Source of the DNA: Bosea sp. RAC05 | GTDB lineage: Bacteria; Pseudomonadota; Alphaproteobacteria; Rhizobiales; Beijerinckiaceae | Assembly: GCF_001713455.1 (NCBI RefSeq) | Contig: NZ_CP016464.1 | Location: forward strand, 991,501-1,055,500 | Direction: 5' to 3' | Length of the DNA stretch: 64,000 nt | Made by a program: the position numbers and the translations under genes | In this document: positions 3,268 to 58,163 of the stretch, piece by piece | Layout: each line of letters starts with the position of its first letter | How positions within the stretch are numbered: the stretch's first letter is position 1 | The notes under the pieces: model-generated | What the model saw: only the letters and a program-made list of their open reading frames with translations | Database searches by the model: none | What the model was told of the DNA's origin: nothing

Positions 3268-4551
3268 TCAGTTCAGCACGAGCCGCGGCAGCCAGAGCAC
3301 GACCTCGGGGATGAAGGTGATGATCACCAGCACGCCGAACCCGACACCGAGGAAGGGCAGCACCTCACGCACGACCCGCTCGATCTTCACCTGGGCGAAG
3401 TTGCCGCAGATGTAGAGGAGAATGCCGACCGGCGGCGTCAGCAGGCCGAGCATCAGGTTGAAGACGATGACCAGCCCGAAATGCACCAGATCGATGCCGA
3501 CCGCCTCGACGATCGGGATCAGCACCGGGATCAGAATGATCATGGCCGCGATGGCTTCCATGAAGCAGCCGACGATCAGCAGCAGCACGTTGATCAGGAT
3601 CAGGATGACCCAGGGATTGTTCGAGAAGGCACCGATCCACGCGGCGATCTCGCGCGGCAGGCCGCTCACCGCCATCAGCCAGCCGAAGCCGGCGGCAAAG
3701 GCGATGATGATCATGACCACGGCGGAATCGAGCCCGCTCTGGACGCAGATGCTCCAGAGCTGGCGCCAGGACAGTTCGCGGTGGATCACCATCGCGACGA
3801 AGAGCGCATAGAGAACCGCGACCGCAGCGCTCTCGGTGACGGTGACGACGCCGCCGGTGACGCCGAACAGGATCACGAAGGGCATCATCAACGCCCAGAT
3901 CGCCTTGCTGCCGGAGCGCAGCACCTCGCGCATCGGCACCGCCTCGTGGACCGGGTATTTCCGGGCGCGCGAGATCAGGTAGACGACGACGGCGAGCCCG
4001 CCGCCGAGCAGCAGGCCGGGGATGACGCCGCCGAGAAACAGGGCGGCGACCGAGACGCCCTTGCCGACCGAAAGGGCGTAGATCACGAGCGGGATCGAGG
4101 GCGGGATGATCGGCCCCATCACCGAGGCCGAGGCCGTGATCGAGGCGGCGAAGCCGGGATCGTAGCCCGAGCGCTTCATGCCGGGGATCAGCACCTTGCC
4201 CAATGCGGTCGCATCGGCGACCGCCGAGCCGGAGACGCCGGAGAAGACCATGCAGGACATCACGGTGGTGAGGCCGAGCCCGCCACTGAACCGGCCGACG
4301 CAGGCATTGGCAAAGCTGATGATGCGGGCGGTGATGCCGCCGACATTCATGATGTTGCCGGCCAGGATGAAGAACGGGATCGCCAGCAGCGAATAGGAAT
4401 CCGCCCCGATCAGCGCCCGCTGCACGAAGACCGAGAAGGGCAGCGTCGGGTGGTTGGCGATCGTCATGACGGCGGCAAGCGCCATCGCGAAGGCGATCGG
4501 CAGGCCCAGCAGCATCATCACGCCGAAGGAGAGCATCAGCACGCCGGCCAT
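3268..4551 (-). CDS. dctM: TRAP transporter large permease (DctM family)
   Basis: Large membrane subunit (427 aa, about 11-12 hydrophobic segments) of a tripartite ATP-independent periplasmic importer driven by the sodium or proton gradient. Characteristic DctM signatures: PFFILAGNIMN near residue 55, GVSGSAVADATALG near 105, ASVMGPIIPPSIPLVIYA near 150, and a final LGLLTPPVG motif. The start is ATG at 4549-4551 behind AAGGAG. It follows the small permease by 13 bases, so the two are co-translated. The substrate is unknown; the neighbouring oxidoreductase and gamma-glutamyltransferase suggest an amino-acid-like or hydroxy-acid compound (inference). Confidence 0.93.
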   Translation of the reverse strand: MAGVLMLSFGVMMLLGLPIAFAMALAAVMTIANHPTLPFSVFVQRALIGADSYSLLAIPFFILAGNIMNVGGITARIISFANACVGRFSGGLGLTTVMSCMVFSGVSGSAVADATALGKVLIPGMKRSGYDPGFAASITASASVMGPIIPPSIPLVIYALSVGKGVSVAALFLGGVIPGLLLGGGLAVVVYLISRARKYPVHEAVPMREVLRSGSKAIWALMMPFVILFGVTGGVVTVTESAAVAVLYALFVAMVIHRELSWRQLWSICVQSGLDSAVVMIIIAFAAGFGWLMAVSGLPREIAAWIGAFSNNPWVILILINVLLLIVGCFMEAIAAMIILIPVLIPIVEAVGIDLVHFGLVIVFNLMLGLLTPPVGILLYICGNFAQVKIERVVREVLPFLGVGFGVLVIITFIPEVVLWLPRLVLN

Positions 4552-54871: not shown

Positions 54872-55792
54872 TCAGAACCGGTAGATCCGCCGCGCATTGT
54901 CGTGGAACAGCCGGTCCCGTTCGCCATCGCTCATCGCCGTGGTGGCGGCGAGGAAGCCCGAAAAAATCGTGTCGAAATCCCCCACGATCCCGTCGACCGG
55001 GAAATTGCTGGCGAACATCGCCCGGTCGCTGCCGAAGATCGCGATCGCGTCGCGGATCACCGGCCCGTTGCCCTCGACGGTCCAGGGCCGCCCCGGCAGG
55101 CCGATCCCTGAGATCTTGAGGGCGATGTTGGGCTGCGCGGCGGCCAGTTCCAGCGCGCGGCGCCAGGCGGCGAGCGCCTCCGGGCTGCGGTCGGCCGGCA
55201 GGCCGGTGTGGTTGACGATGATCTGGGTCGCCGGGACATCCCTGGCCAGATCGGCCGCCGCATCGAGATGCCACCAGGGCGTCTGCAGATCATAGGACAG
55301 GCCGTGGCGCGCCAGCAGGCCGTAGCCCTCGCGCCAGCGCGGATCGTCCATCGAGCCCGGCGCGCCGCGGCGGGCCTCGGAGGGCTTCGCGGCCGCTGCC
55401 GGCTTGTGCCGGACGCCGCGCACGATCGGCACGGCGGCATGGGACGCCAGCAGGGCGCCGGCCTCCGGCGCCGCGAAATCGCACCACGCCACGATGACGG
55501 AGGGCACGCCGTCACGCGCGGCGACCGCCGCGACCCAGGGGCTTTCCAGCGCCGCCTTGTCGCGCGCCCATTCGGCCTCGACATAGACCGAGCCGGTGAC
55601 CGGCCAACCCTTGGTGTCGGCGCGGTAGTCGGTGGGCATGTAGTTTCGGCAGATCGGCGAATAGTCGCCATAGCGGAAGGGAATGCGCTCCTCCTTCAGC
55701 CAGGGCAGGTCGTTGGCGAGGTCCCAGATATGGTGATGGGCGTCGATCACGGCGCGTGGGCGGGCGGGCAGGGGGCTCGGCGCGGCGCTCAT
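54872..55792 (-). CDS. Amidohydrolase-2 family metal-dependent hydrolase (COG3618-type lactonase)
   Basis: TIM-barrel hydrolase of 306 aa, related to L-fuconolactonase and other sugar/aryl lactonases. Metal-binding HxH is in VIDAHHHIWDL near residue 17; other conserved residues lie in IIVNHTGLP (near 188), ALKISGIG and FASNFPVD (near 260). Its ATG overlaps the stop of the CoA-transferase/dehydrogenase fusion by four bases, so they are co-translated and probably act in one pathway. Confidence 0.88.
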   Translation of the reverse strand: MSAAPSPLPARPRAVIDAHHHIWDLANDLPWLKEERIPFRYGDYSPICRNYMPTDYRADTKGWPVTGSVYVEAEWARDKAALESPWVAAVAARDGVPSVIVAWCDFAAPEAGALLASHAAVPIVRGVRHKPAAAAKPSEARRGAPGSMDDPRWREGYGLLARHGLSYDLQTPWWHLDAAADLARDVPATQIIVNHTGLPADRSPEALAAWRRALELAAAQPNIALKISGIGLPGRPWTVEGNGPVIRDAIAIFGSDRAMFASNFPVDGIVGDFDTIFSGFLAATTAMSDGERDRLFHDNARRIYRF

Positions 55793-57888
55793 GGCCGGCC
55801 CTTTCCGCGTGATGCGGCCTCGTGCTCGTAGAGCTTCACCACGGCCGCCGAATCCGACATCTCGTGACCGAGCGCGACATAGTCCTTGTAGCGCTGCACG
55901 CCCTGCTCGATGACACGGAGATCGAGCCCCAGCCCCTGGGCGAAGGCGGAGACGGCCTTCAGATCCTTCAGCAATTGCCGCGCATAGCTGGAAGGTGGCT
56001 CGAAGGCGCGCTGCTGCATCTGCGGATAGAGCCGCTGCAGCAGGCTGCTGTCGGCATGGCCGCCCGCCAGGCATTGCGGCAGCCGGGCGGCGTCGATGCC
56101 CGCGGCCTCCGCCAGCATCAGCGCCTCCGCCATCAGGACATAGCCCGTGCCGACGATCGCCTGGTTGATGACCTTGGTCGTCTGGCCGGCCCCGACCGGC
56201 CCCATCAGGGTGACGTTGCCGGCCATCTGCCCGAGAAGCGGCTTGGCCGCCTCGAAATCATCGGGGTCGCCGCCGGCCATCACCGTCATTTGCCCCGTGC
56301 GGGCGAGCTGCGGCCCGCCAGAGACGGGCGCATCGATCCAGCCCGCGCCCGTCAGCGCCTTCAGCTTCGCCGCGACACGGCGCGTTCCCTCCGGATCGGC
56401 GGTCGAGAAATCAATCACGAGCTTCGGAGCCGAGGCCGCAGCGGCGATCCCATCCGGCGCCAGGACGCAGCGCTCGACGGCCTGCATGTGCAGCACGCAG
56501 AGCATGACGATGTCGCTCGCGGCCGCGACAGCCGCAGGAGACTCCGCTGCGACGGCACCATGCGGCAGGACTGTCGCCAGCCGCTCGGGCTCGAGGTTCC
56601 AGACGGTCACGCTGTAGCCGAGATCGAGCAGGCGGCGCACCATCGCCTCGCCCATGATGCCGATGCCGATGAAGCCGATGCGCGGGCGCGCGGCCACCGC
56701 ATCGGCCGTGAGGCCCGCGGCCTCCGGCGCGAGCAGGCCGCGGGCGACCAATTCCTGCCGGATCTCCGGGCCATGCTGGTCGAGCAGCGGTGGTGGCAGG
56801 CGCATCTGCTGCGGCGTGGCGCTGAGCTTCACCGGGAATCCGAGTGCCTTGAAGGCCCCTTCCACCGGGTGGGGCACCATCTGCACCATCTCGCGCGCCA
56901 CCGCCTGCTCGCTGACGACAGCCTGCGCATAGTCAAGGATCGGCGCGGCCGGCACGCCCGCCTCAAGCAGCCCGTCGATCCAGATCTGGCGCGTGCGCGA
57001 GGCGAAGGTCGGCGCCATCGCGTCGATGAGCTCGAGGCGGTTGGCGATGCGCGCGGCATTGGTCGCGAAGCGCTCATCCGCCTGGAGATCCTCGCGGCCG
57101 AGCACCTTGAGCAGCTTCATCCAGAGGCCCTGATTGGCGGCGCCGATCACGAACCAGCCGTCGGAAGCCGCCACAGCCTGATAGGGCGCCGACATGCGGT
57201 TGGCCGAGCCGATCGGCTCCGGCGTCCTGCCGGTGCCCCACAACTCCGTCGTTTCCCAGACGGAGAGCGCGAGCGCCGCCTCAAACAGCGAGGCATCGAC
57301 GAACTGCCCCTTGCCGGAGGTCTGCCGCCCGATCACCGCGCTGAGCACGGCATAGGTCGTGAACAGTCCGGCCCCGAGATCGGCGACGGGAATCGAGTTC
57401 TTTGCCGGCTCCATGCCGGGCAGGCCGTTCGCGCTGAGCACGCCGGAGACCGCCTGGGCGATCAGGTCGAAGCCCGGTCGCTGCGACCAGGGGCCGGTCT
57501 GGCCGAAGCCCGAAATGCTGGCGAAGATCAGGCGCGGATTGAGCGCCTTCAGCGTCTCGTAATCCATGCCCAGGCGCTTGGCGACGCCGGGTCGCGCATT
57601 CTCGATCAGGATGTCGGCCGTCTTGACCAGCGCGTAGAGGACGGCGCGGTCGGCCTCCGATTTGAGATCGAGCGCGATGCTGCGCTTGTTGCGGTTCAGC
57701 GCCAGGAAGCCGGGGCTGTCGGCGCCCTTCAGGCGAAAGCCCATCGACTGCCGGGTCGAATCTCCCGTGCCGGGCGGCTCGATCTTGATGACGTCCGCGC
57801 CCATGTCGGCCAGCAGCATGCAGCAGAACGGCCCGGCCATGACCTGCGAGATATCGAGCACCCTGATGCCCGCGAGTGGCAACGCCAT
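55789..57888 (-). CDS. Fusion: class III CoA-transferase (CaiB/BaiF) + 3-hydroxyisobutyrate dehydrogenase-type
   Basis: One uninterrupted 699-aa frame holds two complete enzymes. Residues 1-395: CoA-transferase (GIRVLDISQVMAGPFCCMLLADMGADVIKIEPPG; catalytic Asp D170 in VADLGAGLF; GKGQFVDASLFEAAL). Residues 403-695: beta-hydroxyacid dehydrogenase with Rossmann IGFIGIGIMG (404-413), DFSTADPEG near 493, DAPVSGG near 519 and catalytic Lys K572 in GQTTKVINQ. The single chain would couple CoA transfer to a hydroxy acid with its NAD-dependent oxidation or the reverse. I know no standard family with this pairing. Confidence 0.92.
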   Translation of the reverse strand: MALPLAGIRVLDISQVMAGPFCCMLLADMGADVIKIEPPGTGDSTRQSMGFRLKGADSPGFLALNRNKRSIALDLKSEADRAVLYALVKTADILIENARPGVAKRLGMDYETLKALNPRLIFASISGFGQTGPWSQRPGFDLIAQAVSGVLSANGLPGMEPAKNSIPVADLGAGLFTTYAVLSAVIGRQTSGKGQFVDASLFEAALALSVWETTELWGTGRTPEPIGSANRMSAPYQAVAASDGWFVIGAANQGLWMKLLKVLGREDLQADERFATNAARIANRLELIDAMAPTFASRTRQIWIDGLLEAGVPAAPILDYAQAVVSEQAVAREMVQMVPHPVEGAFKALGFPVKLSATPQQMRLPPPLLDQHGPEIRQELVARGLLAPEAAGLTADAVAARPRIGFIGIGIMGEAMVRRLLDLGYSVTVWNLEPERLATVLPHGAVAAESPAAVAAASDIVMLCVLHMQAVERCVLAPDGIAAAASAPKLVIDFSTADPEGTRRVAAKLKALTGAGWIDAPVSGGPQLARTGQMTVMAGGDPDDFEAAKPLLGQMAGNVTLMGPVGAGQTTKVINQAIVGTGYVLMAEALMLAEAAGIDAARLPQCLAGGHADSSLLQRLYPQMQQRAFEPPSSYARQLLKDLKAVSAFAQGLGLDLRVIEQGVQRYKDYVALGHEMSDSAAVVKLYEHEAASRGKGRP

Positions 57889-58163
57889 CCGTCCTGTCCT
57901 CCCTGTTCGGGCCGGTTAGCGGACAGCGTTTCGCGTCCACCCGGCCTCTTCGCGCGCCCGCAGCGTGGTCGCGAGCAGATGACATCATCACGCGCCCGCG
58001 AGCCGGGCGCCATGCCGACGAGCGCGTATGCTGTATGCACCAATCCCATGCCGCAAGAGAATGGTGGCGACGCCTGTCTGCACGAGGCTGTGGGCGAGGG
58101 GCGCGACGAGGGTCCCGATGTTGAGACAGGTTCGTCCGGCCGTGGCTCGTCAAGGGCGGCGGT

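Follow-up and report, generated by a model that had tools for sequence, protein, structure and literature searches.

For carnitine, CaiB and CaiD are a pair formed by a coenzyme A (CoA) transferase and a crotonase, and enzymes of the 3-hydroxyisobutyrate dehydrogenase type work on free acids. In this study we consider a gene within a 64,000-nucleotide stretch of the Bosea sp. RAC05 genome (hereafter the window, meaning the whole stretch), which joins a class III CoA-transferase and a 3-hydroxyisobutyrate dehydrogenase-type enzyme into one chain. It is the domain combination which is new; the parts are already known. Our analysis indicates that the product is probably a real bifunctional protein, which arose in Bosea by loss of an intervening enoyl-CoA hydratase (ECH) gene and joining of the frames. 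For YfdE, a described class III enzyme, Asp173 is named as the active-site residue, and a loop region is proposed to distinguish functions (PMC3720670).

The two halves and their described relatives

The frame is open, as a preliminary description of this sequence had it, and spans 699 residues, with D170 and K572 at the places given there and both domains recognized by Pfam (Table 1). The CoA_transf_3 domain is full-length (2e-130, 435.6 bits, profile positions 1-365 of 366), and it is followed by NAD_binding_2 (residues 403-563, 2.4e-45) and NAD_binding_11 (residues 566-687, 6e-23). In alignments, D170 falls on the active-site Asp of YfdE (4hl6), and K572 falls on the Lys of tartronate semialdehyde reductase (1vpd); across 17 alignment rows, the GxGxxG and DAPVSGG motifs and the catalytic Lys of the dehydrogenase are invariant, except for V522, which is nearly so. 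With a full-length domain and the catalytic Asp, the first half belongs to the class III CoA-transferases (PF02515), and with both domains, the two motifs and the catalytic Lys, the second belongs to the beta-hydroxyacid dehydrogenases (PF03446 and PF14833). A linker of 10 to 15 residues had been proposed and about 14 were found, as the CoA-transferase is conserved in relatives to about residue 386 and the dehydrogenase begins with RPRIGF from residue 401. Separate production of the dehydrogenase from the in-frame GTG codon V398 is possible; the predicted upstream pairing of this codon is weak in the window (-2.5), and in G084, another Bosea chromosome with the fusion, it is -4.1 but only 2 nt away, the median for the 47 in-frame ATG, GTG and TTG codons of the fusion gene being -3.1.

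Neither the fusion nor the amidohydrolase encoded next to it reaches any of the NCBIfam cut-offs. Like the class III (CaiB/BaiF) CoA-transferases, such as YfdE and the formyl-CoA:oxalate and succinate--glutarate enzymes, the fusion matches over the whole length with the catalytic Asp aligned; however, its best NCBIfam score among them is 290.9 against a cut-off of 750, and it has a dehydrogenase attached. For the acetyl-CoA:oxalate group of YfdE (NF008511) the score is 275 bits against 522, and the loop reading GNRH (GNxH) in YfdE is replaced by GSAN, so that oxalate is unlikely to be its substrate. Tartronate semialdehyde reductase (2-hydroxy-3-oxopropionate reductase) and 3-hydroxyisobutyrate dehydrogenase share with the fusion the Pfam domains, both motifs and the Lys, whereas its scores stay below the cut-offs of both (TIGR01505, the best, 207.4 against 340.75; TIGR01692, 155.4 against 291.6); moreover, unlike the known beta-hydroxyacid dehydrogenases, this one is the C-terminal half of a fusion. 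The likeness to the carnitine pair lies in gene order, 70 of 80 related loci (the best 80 of 157 relatives in named genomes, the sample for the counts among 80 loci below) having ECH immediately downstream of the CoA-transferase, but the L-carnitine CoA-transferase match is 106.9 against 413 and the fusion locus has no ECH. A further likeness is to the single chains P0122-P0126 (P0122 from Teichococcus, P0123 from Roseomonas, and metagenomes; dehydrogenase 58-60%), in which the same dehydrogenase and amidohydrolase families are joined; they differ in that the other partner is fused and the CoA-transferase is absent. P0129 was set aside as a chain of this kind, its second dehydrogenase domain being cut (profile 1-53 of 122) in a frameshift-like manner.

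Conservation and rarity of the fused frame

The same fusion is found in G084 (one contig of 5,008,847 bases), with 97% over all 699 residues, and in the database protein P0002 (699 aa, from a contig of 4,865,277 bases), with 98%. The three sequences are distinct, P0002 and G084 being identical at 684 of 699 residues, and the junction has the same length and frame in all of them. The fusion genes of the window and G084 differ at 122 nucleotides, 96 of which are at third codon positions. By the NG86 method, dN is 0.0119 and dS 0.2408 for the CoA-transferase (residues 1-385; dN/dS about 0.05), and 0.0152 and 0.1854 for the dehydrogenase (residues 402-699; about 0.08). These values indicate that purifying selection has kept both halves since the divergence of the two lineages. 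The linker varies more freely, with three nucleotide differences in residues 386-401, all of them residue-changing.

The single-chain architecture is as unusual as had been supposed: among the best 120 of 172 dehydrogenase relatives from a profile search, 119 stand alone (297-315 aa) and one is fused, namely P0002, whose entry covers 73 member sequences. Each protein-database search scored 8000 candidates and reported the best 120 at most, and for this reason distant fusions could have escaped detection. In a sample of 385 genomes from the class (at most 3 candidates scored per genome, E<=1e-100), no genome but that of the window showed the fusion, and a comparable sample of class genomes, again with at most 3 candidates scored per genome, yielded no dehydrogenase-amidohydrolase fusion. 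No literature on such a fusion or cluster was found by title and start of abstract among open-access papers, a weak absence. As far as seen, the fusion appears confined to a few Bosea. As a separate observation, five proteins of 789-834 aa (P0003, P0007, P0017, P0019 and P0065) have no other family listed than CoA_transf_3 and are possibly tandem CoA-transferases in one chain.

Gene order in relatives and probable origin within Bosea

The window's genome has a second, split copy (L118, at about G000:C2:4.647-4.655 Mb; 82% and 83%), whose order is GntR regulator, CoA-transferase, ECH, dehydrogenase, amidohydrolase, and the P, Q and M genes of a tripartite ATP-independent periplasmic (TRAP) transporter. 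Its ECH is of the PRK06144 subfamily (301.5 bits, cut-off 272). This order, with or without GntR, occurs also in other Bosea, Microvirga, Arsenicitalea, Falsochrobactrum, Oceaniovalibus and Szabonella, and with an insertion in Aurantimonas. The dehydrogenase and the amidohydrolase are downstream of the CoA-transferase in 15 of the 80 loci, the same 15 for both, and ECH is without a cluster-type dehydrogenase within 2.5 kb downstream in 59, two of which (L092 and L098) have a more distant dehydrogenase elsewhere in the locus.

A CoA-transferase of at least 81% was found in 13 copies in 12 genomes when 67 genomes of the genus were searched. The preliminary description would have taken separate genes in all close relatives as the mark of a sequencing error; this is not what is seen, as ten of the 13 copies have separate genes, two carry the fusion intact and one is a fusion locus with a broken frame (L021, in G031). 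ECH is intact in six of them (the second copy in G000, G009, G014, G018, G027 and G083), broken in frame in one (G090) and absent in six (both fusions, G031, G024, G076 and G088). In L023, L025 and L071 the genes are unfused and ECH is missing, which is ECH loss without fusion. All four trees (CoA-transferase, dehydrogenase, amidohydrolase and concatenated) unite the three fusion loci in a single clade with support 100. L025 and L071, both without ECH, are placed by the CoA-transferase tree among ECH-bearing copies and not near the fusion (supports 91 and 89); this placement suggests that ECH was lost at least twice, but it is weak in the concatenated tree (48 and 59). In Bosea vaviloviae SD260, the ECH frame (L022:9188-9969) shifts near residue 153, and ECH is intact in its relative L024.

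Since the relatives and the genome's own second copy have ECH in between, the fusion was most likely born in Bosea together with ECH loss, and the direction would be from split with ECH to fused without it. The route may have been either a single deletion of about 1 kb, or ECH loss first and then a small indel; the intermediate of the latter exists, because in L025 the CoA-transferase stop and the dehydrogenase start overlap as GTGA. Searches for ECH remnants with tblastn and blastn at five junctions gave chance-level matches, except in L023, where 147 nt match the L120 ECH-dehydrogenase spacer at 71%; the spacer therefore outlasted ECH loss in L023. A fossil Shine-Dalgarno sequence in the linker was also considered, as GCCGGAGGC lies 5' of codon 394 and the same string precedes the L071 dehydrogenase. 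It was dropped: the linker is no closer to the upstream regions of eight relatives than shuffled linkers are (fraction 0.27 to 0.98), and L120 encodes APE at the GCCGGAGGC position within its CoA-transferase tail.

Several observations weigh against a functional bifunctional protein of this origin. The linker holds no recognisable trace of the lost DNA, and the nearest split copy of the fusion differs by tree with supports of 24 to 65, being L120 in the CoA-transferase tree (65) and the concatenated tree (51), L022/L024 in the dehydrogenase tree (24), and a group with L120, L118, L028, L029 and L035 in the amidohydrolase tree (65). The AlphaFold2 model of the fusion is poor (mean pLDDT 57.6, pTM 0.44, from a 27-row alignment; it covers one chain of what, in a class III CoA-transferase, would be an interlocked dimer), the confident region being mainly the Rossmann part (about 400-560) and residues 395-399 of the linker being below 50 pLDDT. 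In L021, the metagenome-assembled genome (MAG) of Bosea sp. 12-68-7, a 106-nt deletion at 4225-4226 across the linker and the Rossmann motif breaks the frame, and the dehydrogenase half may have been lost in this lineage, unless the deletion is an assembly error; the remaining dehydrogenase part still looks conserved (dN/dS figures 0.019/0.152 against the window). In G010, a case outside the 80 loci, the dehydrogenase (75%) stands alone with the other cluster genes not beside it. Our verdict on the origin stands because the gene-order evidence carries the case, not tree supports for sister or conflict claims; a claim of conflicting histories of the parts with a sister at support 100 was withdrawn, as the splits give 100 to the fusion clade only.

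Surroundings, proposed role and alternatives

The amidohydrolase which adjoins the fusion is of lactonase type. Its best solved match is 4dlf (6.1e-11), which is presumably tied to the cog3618 lactonases, and it also matches NF052480; for L-fucono-1,5-lactonase it has 78.7 bits against a cut-off of 400, so that its substrate is not assignable. The locus, which is also without a TRAP transporter, is flanked on one side by a DCC1-like gene, a peroxidase-family gene (KatG by eye) and a LysR gene, and on the other by an ArsR gene, a flavoprotein gene and a major facilitator superfamily (MFS) gene. The ArsR side is common to the window and G084, and the 9 kb on the non-ArsR side in G084 gave no match to KatG or DCC1.

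Table 1. Features of the fusion locus in the window
Feature	Position	Strand	Details
CoA-transferase/dehydrogenase fusion gene, 699 aa	55789..57888	minus	ATG at 57888, stop 55789-55791
Parts of the fusion protein			CoA-transferase part, residues 1-386; linker, 387-400; 3-hydroxyisobutyrate-dehydrogenase-type part, 401-699
CoA_transf_3 domain	56773..57876	minus	residues 5-372; catalytic D170; Pfam
Linker	56689..56730	minus	residues 387-400; start codon of the relatives' dehydrogenase absent; in-frame GTG (V398)
NAD_binding_2 + NAD_binding_11	55828..56682	minus	residues 403-687; GxGxxG 408-413, DAPVSGG 519-525, K572
Amidohydro_2 protein (lactonase-type), 306 aa	54872..55792	minus	start overlaps fusion stop as ATGA
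TGCATACAGCATACG	58025..58039	minus	contains ATACAG, which lies 148 nt upstream of fusion start and recurs 5' of related genes

The ATACAG string occurs in nine of 35 upstream regions (300 nt, of CoA-transferase or dehydrogenase genes), with 0.031 expected for each, and lies 116-148 nt upstream on the coding strand. Its carriers are the window, L118, L120, L023, L025, L028, L029, L071 and L021, and it is absent upstream in G084, L022, L024, L027, L035, L038, L039, L040, L043 and L046. As the regions are related, this recurrence does not amount to nine independent events; it suggests a shared operator, possibly of GntR type, or part of a promoter.

Other surroundings of the CoA-transferase/ECH pair were also observed. 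Many Sphingomonas and Ancylobacter loci have the pair with genes of iron alcohol dehydrogenase and semialdehyde-dehydrogenase type. In L047, L062, L067, other Sphingomonas loci and L138, it lies by PQQ dehydrogenases, cytochromes c and an SMP-30 lactonase, also with an iron alcohol dehydrogenase and a semialdehyde dehydrogenase (names from the L138 annotation); this type is an uncharacterised catabolic cluster.

Judged from its sequence, the fusion protein is presumably produced and active, and it would belong to the catabolic module that the split genes serve. By the general properties of these families, it would be most economical for a lactone to be opened first and the free hydroxy acid oxidised next, with CoA then transferred and crotonase chemistry last. 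The adjoining amidohydrolase would convert a lactone into a hydroxy acid by ring opening; the dehydrogenase half would oxidise (or reduce) the free hydroxy acid with NAD(P) via K572; the CoA-transferase half would pass CoA from a donor such as succinyl-CoA to a carboxylic acid through D170; and a hydratase, from the second locus in the genome or as another crotonase elsewhere, would then act on the CoA ester. The fusion itself would ensure a fixed 1:1 production of both enzymes. Oxidation before CoA transfer is likelier, because dehydrogenases of this type act on free acids. Of the pathway proposed in the preliminary description, the genuine chain, both active sites and the coupling to a lactonase-type amidohydrolase hold, but a substrate passed directly from the CoA exchange to the oxidation is not supported: the relatives have ECH in between, and the 59 loci above have CoA-transferase and ECH without such a dehydrogenase next to them on the downstream side. 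Fusion by itself is no proof of that transfer, since the combination of CoA-transferase and ECH is commoner and the dehydrogenase co-occurs with the amidohydrolase. The order favoured here would place both fused steps in one pathway, perhaps opposite in sequence to that proposed before. The enzymes are further linked by the single chains P0122-P0126 and by the CoA-transferase and oxidoreductase genes (about 36%) that adjoin on plasmids.

An alternative would be a dedicated short pathway, in which lactonase, dehydrogenase and CoA-transferase take a lactone to a CoA ester between the fused active sites, with no hydratase. It is conceivable because G084 has just the fusion among the matches listed and no ECH match at E<=1e-80, and because six of the 13 Bosea copies are without ECH; the remaining enzymes are kept by selection, and class III CoA-transferase and oxidoreductase genes (about 36% identity) adjoin on Azospirillum and Sphingobium plasmids. 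We regard it nevertheless as unlikely, given that ECH is the commoner partner of the CoA-transferase, that a crotonase gene is also beside the CoA-transferase on the Sphingobium plasmid, that a first look gave 13 to 43 candidate ECH relatives in each of the 67 Bosea genomes, and that the window's genome has an intact ECH in its second copy. It is likewise improbable that the fusion is a channelling two-headed enzyme for which these three activities suffice, the hydratase having been dropped, so that the pathway and not only the gene layout would have changed.

That the fusion is a decaying duplicate, joined by a deletion and being lost while the complete second operon does the work, could be read from that second copy in G000, from the missing ECH and TRAP transporter and from the broken frame in the MAG; but the low dN/dS between the window and G084, the conserved remainder in L021, and the lack in G084 of a second CoA-transferase of at least 80% among the matches listed, where the fusion seems the only copy, make it very unlikely. 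A sequencing or assembly error which erased a stop between two neighbouring genes is hardly credible: it accords with the ten separate copies, but G084 and P0002 carry the same fusion, with the same junction length and frame on contigs of 4.9 to 5.0 Mb, and the fusion is therefore not a sequencing error.

A bifunctional protein born within Bosea thus remains our preferred reading; the fusion is genuine and looks functional, and it represents a local form of an already known gene-cluster type, not a demonstrated new pathway. It offers a traceable gene fusion accompanying the loss of the middle gene, with split forms and ECH-less unfused forms persisting within the genus. Taken with the single chains in which dehydrogenase and amidohydrolase are joined, the fusion links CoA-transferase, dehydrogenase and lactonase as parts of one uncharacterised pathway, and it provides one clonable protein for substrate hunting.

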